DNA of 64,000 nt from Thiobacillus denitrificans (GTDB lineage: Bacteria > Pseudomonadota > Gammaproteobacteria > Burkholderiales > Thiobacillaceae), in assembly GCA_020723405.1 (NCBI GenBank), contig DYIY01000007.1, positions 1 to 64,000 on the forward strand. Reading direction: 5' to 3'. Below are positions 3,071 through 59,388 of this stretch, piece after piece (the stretch's first letter is position 1; each line of letters starts with the position of its first letter). The notes below the pieces were generated by a model, which was not told where the DNA came from, made no database searches, and saw nothing but the letters and a program-made list of their open reading frames with translations. Position numbers and translations under genes: made by a program.

Positions 3071-3562
3071 GCGTTCTTCCGCGAGCGACGAAAAAAGCGG
3101 CCTGGGCCCAAGGGAGTCAAAGTGGGTGTCGACGAAAGGGGAGCTGGCTACAGCGGCCCTTTGCTTTGCATCGTACTGGTGGCCTTGGTCAGTCTTCGGA
3201 CAACGCCCGGCCCAGGCATAGCATCGGTTCAGAGTGCCAGGCTATCGCTGGGGGGGCAAGGCTGTCCGCGCCCCGGGGCGCGTACTCACAAACACGATGC
3301 GGTTCGCTGCGCTCACCACATCCTACGTCCGCCCCCACTGTAGGATGTGGTGAGCGTAGCGAACCGCATCAGGGTTGCGGTGCGGTTCGTGCCTCACCGC
3401 ACCCTACGGGTAGACGGTTTCGTAGGATGTGGTGAGCGCAACGAACCGCATCAACCCGCTACCGCTGCACATGACCCAAGCGCCCAAGCCGTTGCGGACT
3501 GCGATCAACAGCCTTCCGGAACGGCTTGGCCTGGGCCGCTATTTTCTTGGGCGAACGCTGCC
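3071..3562. other. Gene-free convergent spacer
   Basis: This 492-bp stretch lies between two convergent genes (the hypothetical gene ending at 3070 and pnp ending at 3563). I find no credible coding region. Its right half is occupied by the four-unit inverted-repeat cluster at 3296-3452; the left half (3071-3295) shows nothing recognisable. Confidence 0.7.
3296..3452. repeat. Cluster of four REP-like units in two inverted pairs
   Basis: The unit is about 30 bp, beginning GTAGGATGTGGTGAGCG and ending GCGAACCGCATC. It occurs inverted at 3296-3326, direct at 3339-3370, inverted and diverged at 3379-3407 and direct at 3421-3452, so each neighbouring pair can fold into a long hairpin. The same unit pair recurs at 52312-52389 inside the rnf operon. 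It is placed beyond the 3' ends of two convergent genes, the usual location of REP elements. Confidence 0.85.
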
Positions 3563-37793: not shown

Positions 37794-38894
37794 TCAATCC
37801 CCGAAGCTGGTTCCCACCCCCCGGGCGCTGTCCACCCAGGGATGGTCCGGCGGCACGGTCTTGACCTGGCCGGCCACCTGCTCCAGGGGCACGGCTTCGC
37901 TGGATTCGCCCCGGGCCGCCACCATGACGCCGAACCGGCCCTGCTGGATCAGGTCGGCGGCAGCGGTGCCCAGGCGGGTGGCCAGTAGCCGGTCGGCGGC
38001 GGAGGGGGTCCCGCCCCGTTGCAGGTGGCCCAGAATGGTGACCCGGGCTTCCAGACCGGTGAGGTGCTCCAGTTGCTGGGCCAGGTGCAGGGTCCGCTCG
38101 GCATAGACCAGTTCCGGCTCGAAGGCGGGTTCCTTGACCTTCTTGTCCTTCTTGCGGGCTGCGGCGGCCTGCCGGGCGGCGAATTCCTCCCGGGTCAGGG
38201 CCCCCTCGGCCACGGCCACGATGGAGAAGGGCTTGCCCTTGCGCTTGCGGGCCTTGATGGCTTCAGCCACCACTTCCACCGAATAGGGAATCTCCGGGAT
38301 GAGGATCACGTCGGCGCCGCCGCTGATACCCGCCCCCAGGGCCAGCCAGCCGGCCCGGTGGCCCATGATCTCCACCACGATGATGCGGTGGTGGCTATGG
38401 GCGGTACTGTGCAGCCGGTCGATGGCGTCGGTGGCGATGCCCAGGGCCGTGTCGAAGCCGAAGGTGGTGTCGGTGAGGGCCACGTCGTTGTCGATGGTCT
38501 TGGGCAGGGTCACCACGTTGAGTCCCGCCTGCATGAGGCGCAGGGCGTTCTTCTGGGTGCCGCCGCCGCCCAGGCAGACCAGGCAGTCCAGGCCGTTGGC
38601 CCGGTAGTTGGCGACGATGGTCTCGGTCATGTCCAGCACCTTGCCGTGCAGGGGCATCTTGTGGGGCTTGTCCCGGCTGGTGCCCAGGATGGTGCCCCCC
38701 AGGGTCAGGATGCCCGACAGGGCTTCCCCTTCCAGGGCCATGGTGCGGTTCTCCGCCAGGCCCCGGAAACCGTCCCGGAAGCCGACCACGTGCATGCCGT
38801 AATGGGCCTGGCAGGCCTTGCCCACGCCACGGATGGCGGCGTTGAGTCCGGGGCTGTCGCCCCCCGAGGTGAGAATGCCGATGGAGAGGGTCAT
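37794..38894 (-). CDS. 6-phosphofructokinase (ATP/PPi type uncertain)
   Basis: A 366-residue phosphofructokinase; phosphorylates fructose 6-phosphate. [26 protein letters not shown] and [17 protein letters not shown] are typical. The phosphoryl-donor positions are mixed: Lys in PKTIDND (PPi-type or group III) but GGGGT where ATP enzymes have GGDGS and PPi enzymes GGDD, so the usual metal-binding Asp is Gly. A Lys-rich insertion ([11 protein letters not shown]) lies near residue 250. The donor cannot be settled from sequence. Confidence 0.85.
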
Positions 38895-46793: not shown

Positions 46794-46985
46794 TTACCGG
46801 GCCGAACTGTCGCAGGAAGAACCGGAACACCCGCCGCCGGCACAGCAGCCGCAGCCCTTGCCCGTATCCCGGAAGGGCCCCAGTTCCGGGTGTTGCCGGG
46901 CGAAGCGTTCGTAGGCCCGCTGCACGGCGATGCCGAACAGGGCGATGGCCAGGATGAGGCCGATGGCCAGCAGATACGTCGTCAT
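46794..46985 (-). CDS. Small Cys-rich membrane protein, NqrM-like
   Basis: A 63-residue protein: one N-terminal membrane helix (MTTYLLAIGLILAIALFGIAV) and a C-terminal Cys-rich tail (GCGCCAGGGCSGSSC). This layout matches NqrM, a DUF539-type protein needed for assembling the Fe site shared by the Nqr and Rnf families. Here it follows rnfA, overlapping its stop by 4 bp, so it is probably an Rnf maturation protein. The Cys spacing differs from classical NqrM. Confidence 0.7.
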   Translation of the reverse strand: MTTYLLAIGLILAIALFGIAVQRAYERFARQHPELGPFRDTGKGCGCCAGGGCSGSSCDSSAR

Positions 46986-47566
46986 TCCCCCGCTCCCAGG
47001 CCGGCGAAGCCCATGAACCCCAGCGACAGCAGGCCGGCCAGCATCAGCGACAGGGCCGTGCCCTGGACCACGTTGGGCACGCTGGCCAGGTTCAGGCGCT
47101 CGCGCAGGCCCGCCATCAGCAGCAGGGCCAGGGTGAAGCCGGCCCCGCCCGCCGCGGCGAAGGTGAGGGACTGGGTGAAGCTGTACTCCCGGGCCGTCTG
47201 GAACAGGGCCACCCCCAGCACCGCGCAGTTGGTGGTGATGAGGGGCAGGTAGATGCCCAGGGCCCGGAACAGGGCCGGGCTGTACTTCTTCAGCACCATC
47301 TCCACCAGTTGCACCGCCGAGGCGATGATCACGATGTAGGAGATGAGGCGCAGGAACTCCAGATGGAAAGTGGTCACCAGCCAGTTGAGGCCGAAGGCGC
47401 ACAGGCTGGCCACCAGCATGACGAAGGTGGTGGCCGCCCCCATGGGCAGGGCGGTATTGAGACGGGCCGACACCCCCAGGAAGGGACACAGGCCCAGGAA
47501 CATGGCCAGCACGAAGTTGTTGGCCAGCAGGGTACCGATGAAGATCTGGGACAGGGACTCAGACAT
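46982..47566 (-). CDS. rnfA: Rnf complex subunit RnfA
   Basis: A 194-residue integral membrane subunit with six helices, homologous to NqrE. Starts MSESLSQIFIGTLLANNFVLAMFLG; LGLCPFLGVS carries the Cys of the membrane Fe site. ATG at 47566 overlaps the rnfE stop by 8 bp. Together with RnfE it forms the antiparallel membrane pair of the complex. Confidence 0.96.
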   Translation of the reverse strand: MSESLSQIFIGTLLANNFVLAMFLGLCPFLGVSARLNTALPMGAATTFVMLVASLCAFGLNWLVTTFHLEFLRLISYIVIIASAVQLVEMVLKKYSPALFRALGIYLPLITTNCAVLGVALFQTAREYSFTQSLTFAAAGGAGFTLALLLMAGLRERLNLASVPNVVQGTALSLMLAGLLSLGFMGFAGLGAGE

Positions 47567-48215
47567 GGGCGTGGCCCTCCACCGGCTTGGCTTGCGCGGC
47601 ATCGGTCTTGCGGCTGTTCAGCCAGTTGAACAACAGCAGCCAGCTCCCCAGGACGAAGAAACCGCCCGGGGGCAGCACCATGACCACCCAGGGCTGGAAA
47701 TCCGGCCCGAACAGGGCCACCCCGAACAGCTTGCCGGCGCCCAGGATTTCCCGCACCGCGCCCAGGGCGAAGAGGCCCAGGGTAAAGCCGGCCCCCATGC
47801 CCAGGGCATTGAGCACCGAGCGCAGGGGGGGATTCTTGGAGGCGTGGGCCTCGGCCCGGCCCAGGATGATGCAGTTCACCACGATGAGCTGGATGAAGGC
47901 CCCCAGGGCGTCATAGACCGCCAGGCTGATGGCCTGGATCAGGTAGTCCACCACGGTGACGAAGGTGGCGATGATGACGATGTAGGTGGCGATGCGCACT
48001 TCCTTGGGGATGACGCTGCGCAGCAGGGACACCAGCAGGGTGGAGCCCACCAGCACGAAGGTGGTGGCCAGACCCATGCTGATGGCGTTCATGGCCGACA
48101 CGGACACCGCCAGTACCGGGCACATGCCCAGCACCATGACGAACACCGGGTTCTGCTTCCAGATCCCCTCCAGAAGCTCTTCCATGTTGGTGAGTTGTTT
48201 TTGGCCGGGGATCAT
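47559..48215 (-). CDS. rnfE: Rnf complex subunit RnfE
   Basis: A 218-residue six-helix membrane protein, homologous to NqrD. VFVMVLGMCPVLAVSVSAMN contains the Fe-site Cys. It overlaps rnfG by 4 bp (ATGA) and rnfA by 8 bp. Length is normal. Confidence 0.95.
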   Translation of the reverse strand: MIPGQKQLTNMEELLEGIWKQNPVFVMVLGMCPVLAVSVSAMNAISMGLATTFVLVGSTLLVSLLRSVIPKEVRIATYIVIIATFVTVVDYLIQAISLAVYDALGAFIQLIVVNCIILGRAEAHASKNPPLRSVLNALGMGAGFTLGLFALGAVREILGAGKLFGVALFGPDFQPWVVMVLPPGGFFVLGSWLLLFNWLNSRKTDAAQAKPVEGHAHV

Positions 48216-49042
48216 GAGCTGGCCTCCTGACGAGGACTGGCAAGGTCACTCCCCCCTTTCGTAAAGGGGGGCTGGGGGGGATTTTGCGTGGACGAAGGCG
48301 TAGGGGCGGCTTCAAATCCCCCCTCCCCCCCCTTTGCAATGGGGGGAAAAGCGCTCACCCGGGACTGTGGCGCCGCGTTCAACTTCTCCAGGTTGGGCAC
48401 CAGCAGGGGCAGCAGCTTCTGGGCGCTGTCGTTGATGCCCCGGCCCACGGCCTTGGAAGTCACCGTGGCGCCGGCGATGGCGTCGATCTCCCAGGCGTTC
48501 TGCTTGCTGCCGTGCTTGACCACCTTCACCGCGTTGGCCAGGGACTTCAGATCGGCGGACAGCTTCACGTCCAGGGCTTCGAAGTTCTTCAGGAAGGCCG
48601 GGTCGGTGTAGATCTTGTCGCCGATGCCCGGGGTTTCCCGCATGGCAACGACGCCGAAGCCGGTGACCACCTGGCGGGCGGGATCGTAGGCGTAGAGGAT
48701 GCGCACCGTGTCGGCGTAACCCTTGCCGGCCCCTTCGGCGGCGATACCCTTGAGGGTGCCGGCCTGGTCGTAGGCGGCGTAGAACTTCACGCCGCCCTCC
48801 GGTGTGCCGGTGGCCGCGGGCTGGATGCCCGCAGGGGTGGCGAAGTATTCGTCCACCTTGGCGGCACCGGGGATCACCTTGAACACCGCCCGCTCCAGGG
48901 CGAGTTTCTTGTTGGCGTTCACCGCGTCCAGGGTGCCCTCGTAGGCGGTGACGATGAGCACGCCGCACACCGTGGCCACCAGGCCCAGGGTGCGGATCAT
49001 GGCGGCGCTGGGGGTGGCGGGCTGGAGGGTGGCTTCAGTCAT
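48212..49042 (-). CDS. rnfG: Rnf complex subunit RnfG (with repeat-derived tail)
   Basis: A 276-residue FMN-carrying subunit, homologous to NqrC. One N-terminal membrane helix (LGLVATVCGVLIVTAYEG) and a periplasmic domain carry the covalent-flavin motif DAIAGATVTSKAV near residues 184-196. The C-terminal 45-50 residues (AFPPIAKGGEGGFE, then TQNPPQPPFTKGG) are translations of two inverted palindromic repeats and do not belong to the family. The stop still overlaps the rnfE start. The FMN core looks intact. Confidence 0.93.
   Translation of the reverse strand: MTEATLQPATPSAAMIRTLGLVATVCGVLIVTAYEGTLDAVNANKKLALERAVFKVIPGAAKVDEYFATPAGIQPAATGTPEGGVKFYAAYDQAGTLKGIAAEGAGKGYADTVRILYAYDPARQVVTGFGVVAMRETPGIGDKIYTDPAFLKNFEALDVKLSADLKSLANAVKVVKHGSKQNAWEIDAIAGATVTSKAVGRGINDSAQKLLPLLVPNLEKLNAAPQSRVSAFPPIAKGGEGGFEAAPTPSSTQNPPQPPFTKGGSDLASPRQEASS
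48248..48350. repeat. Inverted pair of G/C-block palindromes inside rnfG
   Basis: TCCCCCCTTTCGTAAAGGGG at 48250-48269 (continuing to 48286) faces an oppositely oriented copy at 48314-48350. They are separated by about 28 bp of ordinary sequence. Both are in-frame with rnfG on the minus strand and encode PPFTKGG and PPIAKGG. Other copies are at 21713-21750 and 49064-49089. Confidence 0.9.
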
Positions 49043-49063
49043 GGCCGTGAGCCTTCGGGGGGT

Positions 49064-49089
49064 GTTCCCCCCTTTGGAAAAGGGGGAAT
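49064..49089. repeat. G/C-block palindrome between rnfD and rnfG
   Basis: TTCCCCCCTTTGG and AAAAGGGGGAA form a near-perfect palindrome in the 73-bp gap between rnfG and rnfD. It is the core of the family described at 21713-21750 without the extra G block. It would form a hairpin in the rnf mRNA just ahead of rnfG. Confidence 0.85.
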
Positions 49090-49115
49090 GACGTGGGGGG
49101 TGGAGCGAAGGGGGG

Positions 49116-50162
49116 TCATGCTTTCTTCCCCTTTGCGGCGCCGAACACCCGGGGCTGGGTCACCTGGTCGATGAGGGGGGCCAGGGCGTTGCCGATGAGG
49201 ATGGCATACATGACGCCCTCGGTGAGGCCGCCGAAGTAGCGGATCATCACGGTGACCACGCCGATGAGGGCACCGTAGAGCCACACCCCTTTGGGGGTCA
49301 CCGGGGAAGTGGCCATGTCGGTGGCCATGAACACGGCGCCGATCATGAGGCCGCCGGAAAGCAGCACGAACAGGGGATCCGGGTAGCGGGCCGGATCGAT
49401 CATCTGAAACACCCAGGCGGTGAGGGCGGCGCTGCCCAGCACGGCCACGGGAATACGCCAGTCCAGGAACCGGCGCACCGCCAGGTAAAGGCCGCAGAGC
49501 AGGATCAGGATGGCCGAGGTCTCCCCCGCCGAAGCCGTCACGGCACCGGACAGGAAATCCCCCGGCGCGGCCAGCACGTTCTCGAACTTCCAGCGGGCCA
49601 GAGGGGTGGCGCCGGTGAAACCGTCCACCGCCGCCCTGGCCCAGTCGCCGATGTCCGGCGGAGTCATGAAGGGAAGGGTGAAGGTGGTGGGCGCGAATTC
49701 GCTGAAGCGCTGGGCGGAGAAGGCCGGAATCCAGGTGGTGATGGCCACCGGAAAGGCGGCCTGGACGAAGGCCCGGCCCACCAGGGCGGGGTTCAGCACG
49801 TTGAAGCCGATGCCGCCGAACAGGGCCTTGCCCAGGGCGATGGCGGTGAAGCCGGCCACCGCTCCCATCCACAAGGGGAAGGCCGGGGGCAGGGTCAGGG
49901 CCAGCAACAGGCCGGTGATGGTGGCCGACCAGTCCGACAGGGTGCTGGCCGTGCCGCCCAGCCGGTTGAACAGCCGCTCGGTCAGCAGACAGGTCCCGGT
50001 CACCGTCACCAGCAAGGCCAGGGCCGACAGGCCGTACTGCCAGACCGAGAAGGCGGCGATGGGCAGCAGGGCCAGCACCACGTGGAACATGATGCGTTCC
50101 ACGCTGTTGTCCTTCACCACATGGGGCGAAGTGCGCAGTTCCAGGCGGAGGGGTTCGTTCAT
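49116..50162 (-). CDS. rnfD: Rnf complex subunit RnfD
   Basis: A 348-residue membrane subunit homologous to NqrB, with about nine helices. Residues 5-35 (RLELRTSPHVVKDNSVERIM) match the family start. The covalent-flavin Thr lies in DGFTGATPLARWK near residues 180-190. ATG at 50162. The next upstream gene is the unrecognised 221-residue gene, 13 bp away. Confidence 0.95.
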   Translation of the reverse strand: MNEPLRLELRTSPHVVKDNSVERIMFHVVLALLPIAAFSVWQYGLSALALLVTVTGTCLLTERLFNRLGGTASTLSDWSATITGLLLALTLPPAFPLWMGAVAGFTAIALGKALFGGIGFNVLNPALVGRAFVQAAFPVAITTWIPAFSAQRFSEFAPTTFTLPFMTPPDIGDWARAAVDGFTGATPLARWKFENVLAAPGDFLSGAVTASAGETSAILILLCGLYLAVRRFLDWRIPVAVLGSAALTAWVFQMIDPARYPDPLFVLLSGGLMIGAVFMATDMATSPVTPKGVWLYGALIGVVTVMIRYFGGLTEGVMYAILIGNALAPLIDQVTQPRVFGAAKGKKA

Positions 50163-50175
50163 GGGGCGGGGGGAC

Positions 50176-50841
50176 TCAGGAAGCCAGGGCAAGGGGTTGG
50201 GCGGTCACGCCATCGTAACCCGGAGCCCCTTCGCCGTAACCCGCCCCTTCGATGTCCGCCCAGGCGCGCAGGACCCGGTCCAGTTCCCGGGGCGACAGGC
50301 GGCGGCCCAGGTCCCGGGCCAGACGTTCGGCCAGCTTGCGGCAGCAGGCGTGGAACTGGCCGTAGGCTGGATCGTGGTCGCTCATGGCCAGGTAGCCGCA
50401 CTCCTCTCCCATCAACCGCCGGGCGGCCCGTTCCACCAGGCTGTCATGGATGAAGAACAGTTCGGGGAAATGGAAGTGGAGGTACTTGGAGGCCAGGGAC
50501 CGGGCTTCCTCCACCGGCAGTTCGGCGAACACGTCCATGACCCGCTTGTGCAGTTCCAGGGGCAGCCAGCCGCCCAGTTCCTCGGCCGTGGCCACCGTGG
50601 CGAACCAGTGGTCCACCGGGGACTGGGTCAGGCAGTGGGCACCCCGCTCCGGCGAGAAACCGGCGCCGGTCTCATACTCCTCGAACAACCGGGCGATGAG
50701 GCGCAGCTTGTCGGCGACGATCACGTCGCGCAGATGGTCCCGGTGCATGAAGCACAGGTCGTAGAGGGCCCGGGTGCGGGGGTCCAGCACGGACTGGGAG
50801 AGGGTGTCGGCGATGAACTCGCGGGTCAGGTTGGGTTTCAT
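50176..50841 (-). CDS. Hypothetical protein inside the rnf operon
   Basis: A 221-residue soluble protein, no signal peptide, not recognised as a family. Rich in aromatic/His clusters (YLHFHFPELFFIHDSLVERA), with two Cys in FHACCRKLAERL and one in CLTQSPVDHW. It lies between rnfC and rnfD on the same strand, 13 bp before rnfD. ATG at 50841 (MKPNLTREFIADTLSQSVLD) is preferred over a longer, low-quality N-terminal extension. Could be a regulatory or accessory protein; not assigned. Confidence 0.65.
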   Translation of the reverse strand: MKPNLTREFIADTLSQSVLDPRTRALYDLCFMHRDHLRDVIVADKLRLIARLFEEYETGAGFSPERGAHCLTQSPVDHWFATVATAEELGGWLPLELHKRVMDVFAELPVEEARSLASKYLHFHFPELFFIHDSLVERAARRLMGEECGYLAMSDHDPAYGQFHACCRKLAERLARDLGRRLSPRELDRVLRAWADIEGAGYGEGAPGYDGVTAQPLALAS

Positions 50842-50956
50842 GATGGGTAGCAGAAGTGGGAATTCCGAACCGGGTGAAGCAGACTGCGCCCCCTCACCCC
50901 CGTCCCTGTCCCGCCAGCGGGACAGGAGAGTACGGCGGTGGGCCCGACAGGCGGCC

Positions 50957-52303
50957 TCACTGGGCCTTCTCCCGCAGGATGCCCTTGGCCACGCGGAACT
51001 GCTGGACCAGGGGAATGTGGGAGGGGCAGACATAGGTGCAGCAACCGCATTCGAAGCAGTCGCCCAGGTGATAGTGCTCGCCCATGGCGTCGTACTCCCG
51101 CCGGGCCGCCAGCATGCCCATCATGGACGGGTTGAGGCCCATGGGGCAGACGTTCACGCACTCGCCGCATTTGATGCAGGGATAGGACTTGCGCTCCGCC
51201 CCGTCATCCATGTGGGGCTTGTCGAAGACCAGGATGCCGGACACGCCCTTGGTCACCGGCACGTCCAATGAGGCCACCGCCTGGCCCATCATGGGGCCGC
51301 CCAGGATGATCTCCCGCTCCGACACGTCCGGGGCGCCGGCCCATTCCAGCACCGTGCGCATGGGCGTGCCGATGGGCACCCAGTAATCGCCGGGCTTCTT
51401 GATGCCCGGGCCGGTGACGGTGACCACCCGCTCGGTGAGGCCCTGGCCGGCGGGCAGGATCTGTCCCAGTTGGGCCAGGGTGCCCACGTTGTTGACCACC
51501 ACCCCCACGTGCATGGGCAGTTTGCCGGGGGGCACTTCCACGCCCAGCAGGGACTTGATGAGCATCTTCTCAGCCCCCTGGGGATACTTGGTCTGCACCG
51601 CTTCCACGCTGATGCTGCCGTCGGCGGGCAGGTGGCGGCGGATGGATTCCACCGCGTCCAGCTTGTTGTCCTCCACGCCGATGATGGCCCGCCTGGCGCC
51701 GATGGCCCGCATGGCCAGGCGGGTGCCCACCATGAGGTCGTCCGGGTGCTCCAGCATGAGCTTGTGGTCGCAGGTGAGATAGGGCTCGCACTCGCAACCG
51801 TTGACGATGAGGGTGTGGATGGGGAATTCCCCGGGCACCGACAGCTTGGCATGGCTGGGGAAGGTGGCGCCCCCCAGGCCCACCATGCCGGTGTCCTGGA
51901 TGGCCTGGATCAGTTCCTTGGGCTCCAGGGCAGCCAGATCCCGGGGTTCGGCCCAACGGAGTTCCTGGGTGGAGGCCTCATAGACCCGCAATACGATGCT
52001 TTCCACCATGGGCCCCCGGGCGCTGGGCTTCAGCTCGATGGCTTCGATGACACCATCGGCGGGGGCATGGATGGGGACCGACAGGAATCCGTCGGCCCTG
52101 GCGATGGGTTGGCCACGCAGAACCTCCTCGCCGGCCCGGACAAGGGGCACTGCCGGCTTACCTATGTGTTGCGCGAGGGGGAGGATCATGCGCGACGCAA
52201 ACGGCATCCGACGAATCGGACTGCCGGCAGTGCTCTTGTGCGCGTCGGGGTGAACCCCACGCGCGAAAGTCTTGCGTCCCGAGAAGAAAGAGAAGAAGTC
52301 CAT
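50957..52303 (-). CDS. rnfC: Rnf complex subunit RnfC
   Basis: A 448-residue peripheral subunit that binds NADH and FMN. The Rossmann-type region has GMVGLGGATFPSHAKL, NGCECEPYLTCD and GGPMMGQAV. Two 4Fe-4S motifs (CIKCGECVNVCPMG and CFECGCCTYVCPSHIP) lie near 382-430. ATG at 52303 starts within 10 bp of a palindromic repeat, so no Shine-Dalgarno is seen. It follows nifJ in the operon. Confidence 0.95.
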   Translation of the reverse strand: MDFFSFFSGRKTFARGVHPDAHKSTAGSPIRRMPFASRMILPLAQHIGKPAVPLVRAGEEVLRGQPIARADGFLSVPIHAPADGVIEAIELKPSARGPMVESIVLRVYEASTQELRWAEPRDLAALEPKELIQAIQDTGMVGLGGATFPSHAKLSVPGEFPIHTLIVNGCECEPYLTCDHKLMLEHPDDLMVGTRLAMRAIGARRAIIGVEDNKLDAVESIRRHLPADGSISVEAVQTKYPQGAEKMLIKSLLGVEVPPGKLPMHVGVVVNNVGTLAQLGQILPAGQGLTERVVTVTGPGIKKPGDYWVPIGTPMRTVLEWAGAPDVSEREIILGGPMMGQAVASLDVPVTKGVSGILVFDKPHMDDGAERKSYPCIKCGECVNVCPMGLNPSMMGMLAARREYDAMGEHYHLGDCFECGCCTYVCPSHIPLVQQFRVAKGILREKAQ

Positions 52304-52311
52304 GGTCAGGG

Positions 52312-52389
52312 TGTAGGGTGTGGTGAGCGCAGCGAACCGCACCGGCCAGTTGCCGAAGGCGGTGCGGTTCGTTCCTCACCACACCCTAC
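52312..52389. repeat. REP-like inverted pair between nifJ and rnfC
   Basis: GTAGGGTGTGGTGAGCGCAG (52312-52331, continuing to 52343) and its inverted copy at 52361-52389 are the same unit as in the 3296-3452 cluster. In the mRNA they form a roughly 30-bp stem in the 95-bp gap between the nifJ stop and the rnfC start, and the element reaches within 10 bp of the rnfC ATG. Confidence 0.9.
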
Positions 52390-52398
52390 GGTCTCCCA

Positions 52399-57360
<4,962 letters not shown>

Positions 57361-57373
57361 GTTGGGTAGCCTT

Positions 57374-58258
57374 TCAAACAACGTTGGCGCTGAGGGGCAG
57401 CGCTTCTGTGCGGATGATCTTCTTGGCTTCGCGGCCTTTCACCATGCGGCTGTCATCCAGCCACACGATGGCCCCGGTGGGGCAGCGCTCGATCGCCACG
57501 GGGGACGCCAAGTGGTTCTTGACGTAGTCGATCACCGCCAGGTTGTTGTCCAGGCGGATCAGACCGGGGGCGGCATCCATGACGCATTTGCCACAGGCCG
57601 TGCAGGCCACCTGGCATTGCGCCTCGGAAACATCACCATCCGCCCGGCTCTTGCAAGCCACCCAGAGCTTGTGGCTCACGGGCTGCAAGGAAAACAGGTC
57701 TTTCGGGCACACGTCCACGCAATCGCCGCAGGCCGTGCACTTGCCAGCATCCACCACCGGGAGGCCGTATTGATTCATGGCGATGGCGTCGAAGTCGCAC
57801 TCCACCTCGCAGTCGCCCAGGCCCAGGCAGCCCCAGGCGCAGGCCTTGCCGCCACCGGACACGGTGGCCGCCGCCCGGCAGGTGCCCAGGCCCTTGTAGT
57901 TGGCCCGCATGTAGGCCACGTGGCTGCCGCCGGCACAGGCCAGACGGGCCACCTGCTTCTCCACGTCACCCATTTCCACACCCAGGAAATTGGCGATGTA
58001 GACGTTCATCTCCGGCGCGTTGACCGTGCACTTGGCCGGCACGATCTCGCCAGCCACCACCTGCTCGGCGAAGTTGCGGCAACCGGCGGTGCCACAGGCG
58101 CCGCAGTTGGACTTGGGCAGAAGCTCTTCCACTTCGCCGATGCGCGGATCTTCATAGACATAGAGACGCTTGTTGGCCACGGCCAACAGCCAGGCCAACA
58201 GGGTGCCCAGGACGGCCATGAAGGCCCCTGCCACCGCGATGCTGGACATGATCTCCAT
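57374..58258 (-). CDS. rnfB: Rnf complex subunit RnfB
   Basis: A 294-residue ferredoxin subunit that accepts electrons from ferredoxin. One N-terminal membrane helix; a Cys-rich motif (CGACGTAGCRNFAEQV near 53-68) and ferredoxin clusters (CTACGDCVDVCPKDLFSL and CTACGKCVMDAAPG). The Cys spacing of the last one is unusual (only three Cys in the motif). ATG at 58258 is supported by AAAGG. First gene of the rnf operon. Confidence 0.95.
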   Translation of the reverse strand: MEIMSSIAVAGAFMAVLGTLLAWLLAVANKRLYVYEDPRIGEVEELLPKSNCGACGTAGCRNFAEQVVAGEIVPAKCTVNAPEMNVYIANFLGVEMGDVEKQVARLACAGGSHVAYMRANYKGLGTCRAAATVSGGGKACAWGCLGLGDCEVECDFDAIAMNQYGLPVVDAGKCTACGDCVDVCPKDLFSLQPVSHKLWVACKSRADGDVSEAQCQVACTACGKCVMDAAPGLIRLDNNLAVIDYVKNHLASPVAIERCPTGAIVWLDDSRMVKGREAKKIIRTEALPLSANVV

Positions 58259-58288
58259 CTCAAACACACCTTTCTTGACTATTTACGT

Positions 58289-58458: not shown

Positions 58459-59388
58459 ATGACCGCCGACGCGCCCCTCTATTACAAGAACAACCGCCTG
58501 AAACAGTTACGGGCCTTCTATCAGGTGGTCCGCTGCGGCAGCATTTCCAAGGCGGCCGACAAGCTGTTCCTCTCCCAGCCCTCGGTGTCCCTGCAGATCC
58601 AGGCCCTGGAGCGGGAACTGGCCGTGGTGTTGTTCGAACGGCGGGGCCCCCACTTGAAGCTCACCCCGGAAGGTGACGTGCTGTTCCAGCTTTCCGAGCC
58701 CCTGGTGGACGGCATCGACAAACTCCAGGAGAGCTTCGCCGCCCACTTCGGCAAGCTGGAATCGGGCGAACTGAAGATCGGCGCCGGGGAATCCACCATC
58801 CTCTACATCCTGCCGGAACCGGTGCGCCAGTTCGTCTCGGCCTACCCCAAGGTACAGTTGAAGATGCACAACGTCACCGGGCGCGACGGCCTGAAGATGC
58901 TGCGCTCCGACGAAATCGACTTCGCCGTGGGCTCCATGTTGGAAGTGCCCGAGGACATTGAATACAAGCCGGTGGTCAATTACGACCCCATGCTCATCAC
59001 CCCCCTGGGCCACCCCCTGGCGGAAAAGAACGCCACCGGTGAAGAGATCACCCTGGAAGACGTGAGCCAATACGGCCTCATCCTGCCCCCCAGCCATCTT
59101 TCCACCTGGCGCATCGTCAAATACGTGTTCCAGCAGAACAACCTGACCTTCACGGTGACCCTTGAAGCCGGTGGCTGGGAAGTGATCAAGAAGTACGTGA
59201 GCCTGGGCATGGGCATTTCCATCGTCACGGACATCTGCCTGGAGGGGGGCGAACCCCTGGTGCGCATCCCCCTGACCAAATACTTCCCCCAGCGCAGCTA
59301 CGGGCTGGTTTTACGCAGGGGACGCTTTTTGTCACCCCAGGCCCGGCGTTTCATGGAAATCATGGAATCGGTCTACACGCCAGGCTGA
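58459..59388 (+). CDS. LysR-family transcriptional regulator
   Basis: A 309-residue LTTR. The winged helix-turn-helix (VVRCGSISKAADKLFLSQPSVSLQIQALERELAVVLFERRG, residues about 25-62) is followed by a periplasmic-binding-protein-like effector domain of usual length. ATG at 58459 is preceded by AGAAGGA. It is divergent from rnfB with a large dyad between them, so it is the best candidate for controlling the rnf-nifJ operon. Effector unknown; it resembles CysB-type members loosely. Confidence 0.93.
   Translation: MTADAPLYYKNNRLKQLRAFYQVVRCGSISKAADKLFLSQPSVSLQIQALERELAVVLFERRGPHLKLTPEGDVLFQLSEPLVDGIDKLQESFAAHFGKLESGELKIGAGESTILYILPEPVRQFVSAYPKVQLKMHNVTGRDGLKMLRSDEIDFAVGSMLEVPEDIEYKPVVNYDPMLITPLGHPLAEKNATGEEITLEDVSQYGLILPPSHLSTWRIVKYVFQQNNLTFTVTLEAGGWEVIKKYVSLGMGISIVTDICLEGGEPLVRIPLTKYFPQRSYGLVLRRGRFLSPQARRFMEIMESVYTPG

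Follow-up and report, generated by a model that had tools for sequence, protein, structure and literature searches.

A long pyruvate:ferredoxin oxidoreductase encoded inside an rnf operon of Thiobacillus denitrificans as the probable peripheral arm of its Rnf complex

The operon described here lies in a 64,000-nucleotide stretch of Thiobacillus denitrificans DNA (assembly GCA_020723405.1, contig DYIY01000007.1, positions 1–64,000; hereafter the window) and combines the genes of an Rnf complex with that of a long pyruvate:ferredoxin oxidoreductase (PFOR). Open reading frames and Pfam and NCBIfam profile matches give the order rnfB, long PFOR, rnfC, a hypothetical gene, rnfD, rnfG, rnfE and rnfA, all on the minus strand (Table 1), and bear out the same-strand order rnfB–nifJ–rnfC–hyp–rnfD–rnfG–rnfE–rnfA read in the initial annotation. 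All six Rnf subunits (B, C, D, G, E and A) are encoded together; the contiguity that is usual for rnf genes, if not strictly defining, is broken by the enzyme gene between rnfB and rnfC. The closest solved relatives of the rnfB product are the Rnf B subunits 9eri and 7zc6. The operon probably encodes an ion-coupled, membrane-bound pyruvate:NAD oxidoreductase, in which the long PFOR would be the dedicated peripheral arm of its Rnf.

The position of PFOR between rnfB and rnfC is conserved far beyond chance. The survey of conserved synteny proposed in the initial annotation was run on the best 80 of 526 relatives, chosen by PFOR similarity; rnfB is immediately upstream of the long PFOR in 75 of the 76 loci with enough sequence, and rnfC is immediately downstream in 68 of 68. 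The genes C–D–G–E–A follow in this order in 51 of 53 loci, the exceptions being one locus without detectable E and A (L141) and one without detectable G (L151). A chance insertion or an assembly error was rejected, since the placement is conserved across loci. The records in this set are named Thiobacillus, Gallionellaceae, Rhodocyclaceae, Rhodoferax, Rubrivivax, purple sulfur bacteria, Sedimenticola and animal symbionts; it also contains single metagenome-assembled genomes labelled Acidobacteria, Calditrichaeota, Hydrogenedentota, PVC and others, labels that may err. Loci of the window's kind (type I) occur in the cultured purple sulfur bacteria Thiocapsa roseopersicina (L130), Marichromatium gracile (L134) and Allochromatium palmeri (L136).

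Co-occurrence points the same way. Among 117 genomes sampled from the family, 35 have a cognate rnfB and all 35 have a long PFOR adjacent to it; the one further genome with a long PFOR, making 36, is incomplete, apparently truncated where a contig ends (G029). A sample of 369 genomes from the class contains 28 with a cognate rnfB (E 1e-88 or better), every one of which carries a type I or a type II PFOR: 25 match the window PFOR, and G218, G335 and G435 carry the type II protein described below instead. Three class-sample genomes match rnfB more weakly (E 1e-49 to 1e-53) and lack such a PFOR; their order, where readable, is C–D–E–A–B. Two more rnf clusters of the window genome (G000:C37 and G000:C2) have the order A–B–C–D–G–E, and no PFOR match was found within the 14–18 kb fetched around them. 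In a quick RnfC tree of 47 rows, of which the L186 row is a NuoF-like paralogue and was disregarded, a branch with support 98 has all four PFOR-less rows on one side; the type I rows do not form a supported clade there, L154 and L191 standing apart from the others.

The long PFOR belongs to its family by domains: POR_N, PFOR_II, POR and TPP are above their Pfam cut-offs and the 12 cluster cysteines are present. Against TIGR02176, the NCBIfam model, it scores 417 bits, the cut-off being 911. What the initial annotation calls nifJ is a divergent 1653-aa PFOR; its identity as canonical nifJ was rejected, the genome's canonical copy being a separate gene (G000:C42:46194) with 28–34% identity to the long PFOR where aligned. 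Domain order, three cluster sites, the catalytic Glu and the thiamine motif are common to the long PFOR and the canonical enzymes of D. africanus (1b0p) and Moorella (6cin), but the former is about 420 residues longer than the canonical copy of its own genome (1229-aa frame) and has helical inserts and a tethered ferredoxin. A residue survey covered 75 full-length type I proteins, 74 from the 80 loci and that of the window. The 12 PFOR cluster cysteines are invariant in all 75. So are E94, the counterparts of the pyruvate-site Thr and Arg in the alignment, and the GDG and SNTGGQ residues tested; the roles of these residues we take to be those in the D. africanus enzyme. With the ferredoxin included, sixteen cluster cysteines are invariant except for one gap at C1624.

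Between the two cluster motifs of domain V, the AlphaFold2 (AF2) model contains a block of four helices, a candidate docking element; a sequence search with the domain V alignment returned PFOR and ferredoxin-like matches only, none of them naming the insert. Helices in the thiamine domain and a C-terminal extension are further additions to the canonical enzyme. The chain ends in a flexible linker and a single-cluster ferredoxin. The aligned linker region (1537–1575) varies from 28 to 90 residues across the 75 sequences and is rich in Ala, Gly and Ser; the ferredoxin domain is modelled as a block with a predicted local distance difference test (pLDDT) score of 80–93, and among solved structures it is nearest in sequence to ferredoxin I (1dax/1fxr).

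Table 1. Features of the rnf–PFOR operon and its flanks in the window; aa, amino acids.
Feature	Positions	Strand	Description
63-aa open reading frame	46794..46985	-	Hydrophobic start, Cys-rich tail; overlaps rnfA stop
rnfA	46982..47566	-	TIGR01943
rnfE	47559..48215	-	TIGR01948
rnfG	48212..49042	-	Pfam FMN_bind above cut-off; TIGR01947 87 bits, below cut-off 102
rnfD	49116..50162	-	TIGR01946
Hypothetical gene	50176..50841	-	221 aa, accessory; homologue in 5 of the 80 loci
rnfC	50957..52342	-	Probable ATG at 52303; TIGR01945, 501 bits
Palindromic repeat	52313..52389	.	77 bp, within the PFOR–rnfC gap and occupying much of it
Long PFOR	52399..57360	-	1653 aa; PFOR domains, C-terminal extension, linker, ferredoxin
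Tethered single-cluster ferredoxin	52402..52650	-	Residues 1571–1653 (C1582, C1585, C1588, C1624); Pfam Fer4_13
Flexible linker	52654..52725	-	Residues 1546–1569; pLDDT below 50 (AF2)
Second domain V motif CxxCxxCxxxC	54502..54534	-	C943, C946, C949, C953; 75/75 type I, 13/13 type II
Helical insert between domain V motifs	54637..54870	-	Residues 831–908; four helices, block pLDDT 82–96 (AF2)
First domain V motif CxxCxxCxxxC	54904..54936	-	C809, C812, C815, C819; 75/75 type I, 13/13 type II
rnfB	57374..58267	-	297 aa, long polyferredoxin-type; Pfam FeS and Fer4; TIGR01944 marginally above cut-off
LysR-family regulator	58459..59388	+	Open reading frame from TTG 58381, likely start ATG 58459; Pfam HTH_1 and LysR_substrate

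A sister operon (type II) is present at 13 loci: L162–L168, L185–L187, L214, L223 and L224. Two of these are from Sedimenticola (L214, L223) and one is from a Lamellibrachia symbiont (L224); those genomes also have type I. The type II order is korA, korB, a second protein of 755–869 aa, rnfB and a PFOR-like protein of 1143–1603 aa. KorA and KorB were matched in each of the 12 loci with sequence extending to them (L214 is cut); rnfC follows the PFOR-like gene, directly or behind sucC–sucD, in 10 of the 12 loci long enough to show it, a count in which L214 shows only the edge of rnfC and L165 is cut. The PFOR-like protein keeps the eight domain V cysteines in all 13 loci. The four proximal-cluster cysteines, E94, T61, N1276 and the SNTGGQ stretch are lost in all 13; G1242 and G1244 are kept in two proteins each, D1243 in six and R144 in nine. 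The set expected of an active PFOR (catalytic Glu, GDG, SNTGGQ and proximal cysteines) is not found in it, and in L185 and L187 the matches skip approximately residues 500–690, most of the POR domain. Pairwise ratios of nonsynonymous to synonymous substitution rates are 0.11, 0.19 and 0.36 for three type II pairs, with synonymous changes near saturation, and 0.16–0.32 for three type I pairs; the type II genes look like maintained genes under purifying selection rather than decaying ones. In a quick PFOR tree of 30 rows, types I and II are sister clades with support 98, a placement that is provisional given the long branches and deviating composition of type II.

The second protein of type II resembles the C-terminal part of the long PFOR and has a ferredoxin at its end, the motif being found in 11 of 12 loci (the gene is split in L168); the ferredoxin domains of the window and L166 are 49% identical. 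In type II, the ferredoxin domain is no longer part of the PFOR body but of another protein encoded in the operon. KorAB has its alpha and beta subunits and the thiamine motif, with GDGD kept in 10 of 10 KorB sequences; in L166, the TIGR03710 match is above its cut-off and the TIGR02177 match, at 242 bits, is below its cut-off of 262. The genes sucC–sucD follow the PFOR-like gene in five of the 13 loci (L168, where they were named by NCBIfam, and L163, L185, L187 and L224, where they were named by similarity) and are circumstantial evidence for 2-oxoglutarate as the KorAB substrate. Upstream of korA in L185, L186, L187, L223 and L224 are genes for an iron–sulfur protein, a fumarate-reductase-like flavoprotein and a NuoF-like protein, the last also visible at the edge of L165. 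The best model for the flavoprotein is TfrA (353 against a cut-off of 718); L-aspartate oxidase models also match. These neighbours fit a route from fumarate to succinate, succinyl-CoA and 2-oxoglutarate.

Gene order, co-occurrence, domain make-up, the cysteine pattern and the type II loss of catalytic residues are direct observations. Physical docking, the electron path, the substrates, the direction and the coupling ion are proposed on a conditional basis, as follows. The PFOR body would be a docked, fixed arm, and the domain V clusters and the ferredoxin would be its wire into RnfB. Thiamine diphosphate, the proximal cluster and both domain V clusters would exchange electrons, which would pass through the tethered ferredoxin to RnfB; from RnfB they would cross the membrane part to RnfC and NAD. 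Since the ferredoxin is tethered, a free low-potential ferredoxin pool would be unnecessary, which would suit oxygen-exposed organisms. The reaction would be reversible and is expected to run mostly as a pyruvate synthase, NADH and the ion gradient turning acetyl-CoA and CO2 into pyruvate for phosphoenolpyruvate (PEP) synthase. In type II, the arm without catalysis would keep the wires and pass electrons to KorAB, which would make an ion-coupled 2-oxoglutarate oxidoreductase. A body that has lost its catalytic residues, yet keeps its wire beside an intact and different 2-oxoacid enzyme, argues for the PFOR body as an arm of Rnf. The direct PFOR–Rnf coupling suggested in the initial annotation is favoured by the conserved placement, the co-occurrence with rnfB, the tethered ferredoxin and the type II pseudo-enzyme, and as an idea drawn from sequence it is well supported. 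A wider proposal, on which the balance is about even, is that of a family of Rnf-based ion-coupled 2-oxoacid:NAD oxidoreductases with a giant PFOR as the permanent arm. In type I, the arm would be the enzyme; in type II, it would be a dead wire docking KorAB, with the ferredoxin on a second dead protein and with NADH and the ion gradient driving the fumarate to 2-oxoglutarate route.

A number of observations weigh against the PFOR as a dedicated arm of a pyruvate-converting Rnf. Six class-sample genomes (G200, G226, G312, G324, G343 and G427) have PFOR relatives (E up to 1e-80) and no cognate rnfB; three of them, read at 16–17 kb, have two-gene forms without the Rnf set. In L152 the long PFOR has no rnfB upstream, and in L191, a type I locus, rnfB is located after rnfA and not beside PFOR. 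In two type II loci (L186 and L224), other genes stand in place of rnfC after the PFOR-like gene, and a type II-like rnfC, 81% and 67% identical, respectively, to that of L185, is on another contig of those genomes. A strong hairpin separates PFOR from rnfC in the window, and the AF2 model of domain V has a mean pLDDT of 70.7. Pyruvate as the substrate of the long PFOR is suggested by residue conservation and neighbouring genes, and the window genome also encodes pyruvate dehydrogenase E1 and the canonical PFOR, so that other pyruvate routes exist. An FNR-like flavoprotein gene follows rnfA in 20 of the 52 type I loci with enough sequence; PEP synthase does so in 8 of the 52, and the two never occur together. 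Direction and donor may therefore vary, NADPH possibly being involved as well.

Relatives of the long PFOR without Rnf were also seen among the loci. Those of L172, L173, L178, L170 and L175 are split in two genes or are 1679 aa long; the long or split PFORs of L169–L178 were not counted as part of the system, as there is no Rnf set in the stretches fetched. L172, L177 and L178 have weak RnfC matches at the level of Fer4. In L172 and L178 the PFOR relatives are near a fumarate-reductase-like flavoprotein gene, in L172 also near sucCD-like genes. A sample from the phylum added 43 genomes with distant PFOR relatives, a sample in which rnfB was not searched for.

The alternative that survives best concerns direction. 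With docking as proposed above, pyruvate oxidation would power ion export and NADH formation at low oxygen; this oxidative role seems rather unlikely, though it is the strongest competitor. Thermodynamically, oxidation is favoured, since free energy falls from pyruvate to NAD. PEP synthase adjacency (its regulator, PpsR, was found in five of the 80 loci), the type II sucCD and fumarate-reductase-like neighbours and the pyruvate dehydrogenase of the window genome, which gives pyruvate oxidation another route, favour synthesis instead. A study of rice-root Gallionellaceae proposes a PFOR-based fermentation, a point for oxidation, and in its accessible text the PFOR is not placed with Rnf (PMC10734482). 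Of the two directions offered in the initial annotation, we infer that the reverse, biosynthetic one is to be preferred and the oxidative one is less favoured. The FNR-like gene itself (L104, 19721–20578, and 21 further loci) encodes a protein weakly like PetH and the BoxA reductase parts.

Less likely still is the suggestion that PFOR and Rnf are co-regulated neighbours that form no complex, sharing an operon by way of a common ferredoxin pool from which a diffusible ferredoxin carries the electrons. Ordinary PFORs work with soluble ferredoxin or flavodoxin, and the hairpin before rnfC in the window and the displaced rnfC of two type II loci can be read in the same sense. The long PFOR, however, carries its own tethered ferredoxin; the type I gene is placed between rnfB and rnfC with only two exceptions seen, and purifying selection maintains a version without the catalytic residues in this position. 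It is very improbable that the long PFOR acts on a different 2-oxoacid or that the complex supplies nitrogenase: the window genome does have nifH and pyruvate is a predicted substrate, but the counterparts of the canonical pyruvate-site Thr and Arg are kept in 75 of 75 proteins, and nifH is on contig C37, about 50 kb from a separate, PFOR-less rnf cluster, which makes the window operon the less likely supplier.

The basic arrangement is already known in one organism. The 2014 genome paper on the Solemya velum gill symbiont, in the part accessible, places PFOR genes between rnfB2 and rnfC2, as in the window, names pyruvate as a possible donor and suggests a coupling of the two, with pyruvate oxidation at low oxygen leading to ion export and NADH formation (PMC4287430). 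Locus L147 of the present set is from that organism. The published account, in the same accessible part, covers position and a possible donor role, without the tether, a survey or the pseudo-enzyme (PMC4287430). The order rnfBCDGEA is described, in the text available, as that of Bacteroidetes/Chlorobi Rnf (PMC4014512); all six subunits and the B–C–D–G–E–A order are common to it and the window operon, but in the latter the long PFOR separates rnfB from rnfC, and a PFOR of this kind is present wherever a sampled genome has the cognate rnfB.

In the Riftia symbiont, the expression of korAB and 'PFOR-like' genes is reported, in the accessible text, to fall under sulfide limitation, a joint fall such as the genes of one operon might show (PMC11636981). 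A Lamellibrachia symbiont (L224) has a type II cluster, and we infer that the Riftia genes are a type II cluster; the account, as far as accessible, makes no link to Rnf. A tubeworm symbiont study describes an Rnf complex in a reductive tricarboxylic acid cycle gene cluster, with no PFOR mentioned in the part available (PMC6315080), and the term 'PFOR' is absent from the available text of a 2025 RNF review (PMC12174285). A full-text literature search, with subscription papers and bioRxiv mostly outside its scope, returned no account of the tethered ferredoxin, of such a survey or of type II; the extended picture appears new.

Other features of the operon are accessory. The 63-aa open reading frame after rnfA has no Pfam match below E 0.09; a frame of its type stands directly after rnfA in 53 of 56 loci of the set, by our own rule on length, hydrophobicity and Cys, applied without a chance control. 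It is possibly an Rnf maturation factor, a role suspected from a likeness to NqrM that we assume. The 221-aa hypothetical protein gave no Pfam or NCBIfam match in the profile searches, and a divergent LysR gene adjoins rnfB in 28 of the 67 loci with enough sequence. The 106 nt around the palindrome have a folding energy of -61.3 kcal/mol (z -7), and the repeat might lower read-through into rnfC; its arm motif recurs at window positions 3312–3436 and is like that of a repetitive extragenic palindromic (REP) element. The C-terminus of rnfG (48212–48340) and the canonical PFOR of L179 both have Pro-rich stretches with KGG at their end, which look like in-frame insertions of a palindromic element. 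In five loci a thiol peroxidase gene stands between PFOR and rnfC (L112, 14932–15435; L114, L116, L120 and L126), which would fit exposure to oxygen. Away from the operon, positions 37794–38894 encode a phosphofructokinase, for which the best model is the ATP-dependent PRK03202, with TIGR02483 ('PFK_mixed') below cut-off.

The role of Rnf is called unclear or unknown, in the accessible texts, in Allochromatium (PMC3368242) and in iron-oxidising Gallionellaceae (PMC10734462), and the supply of low-potential electrons for ferredoxin-dependent CO2 fixation in aerobic and microaerobic autotrophs is likewise unclear. If PFOR or KorAB were wired to Rnf, pyruvate or 2-oxoglutarate could be made at the expense of NADH and an ion gradient, without a free ferredoxin pool. 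The system is testable in the cultured purple sulfur bacteria that have type I loci, and the type II pseudo-enzyme is a natural separation of wiring from catalysis. If the proposal is true, a soluble carboxylase would be linked to an ion pump through a pseudo-enzyme that acts as electron adaptor, which would be a new principle. Types I and II together suggest that many sulfur- and iron-oxidising bacteria have ion-coupled machines for carbon metabolism, members of a family not yet described.

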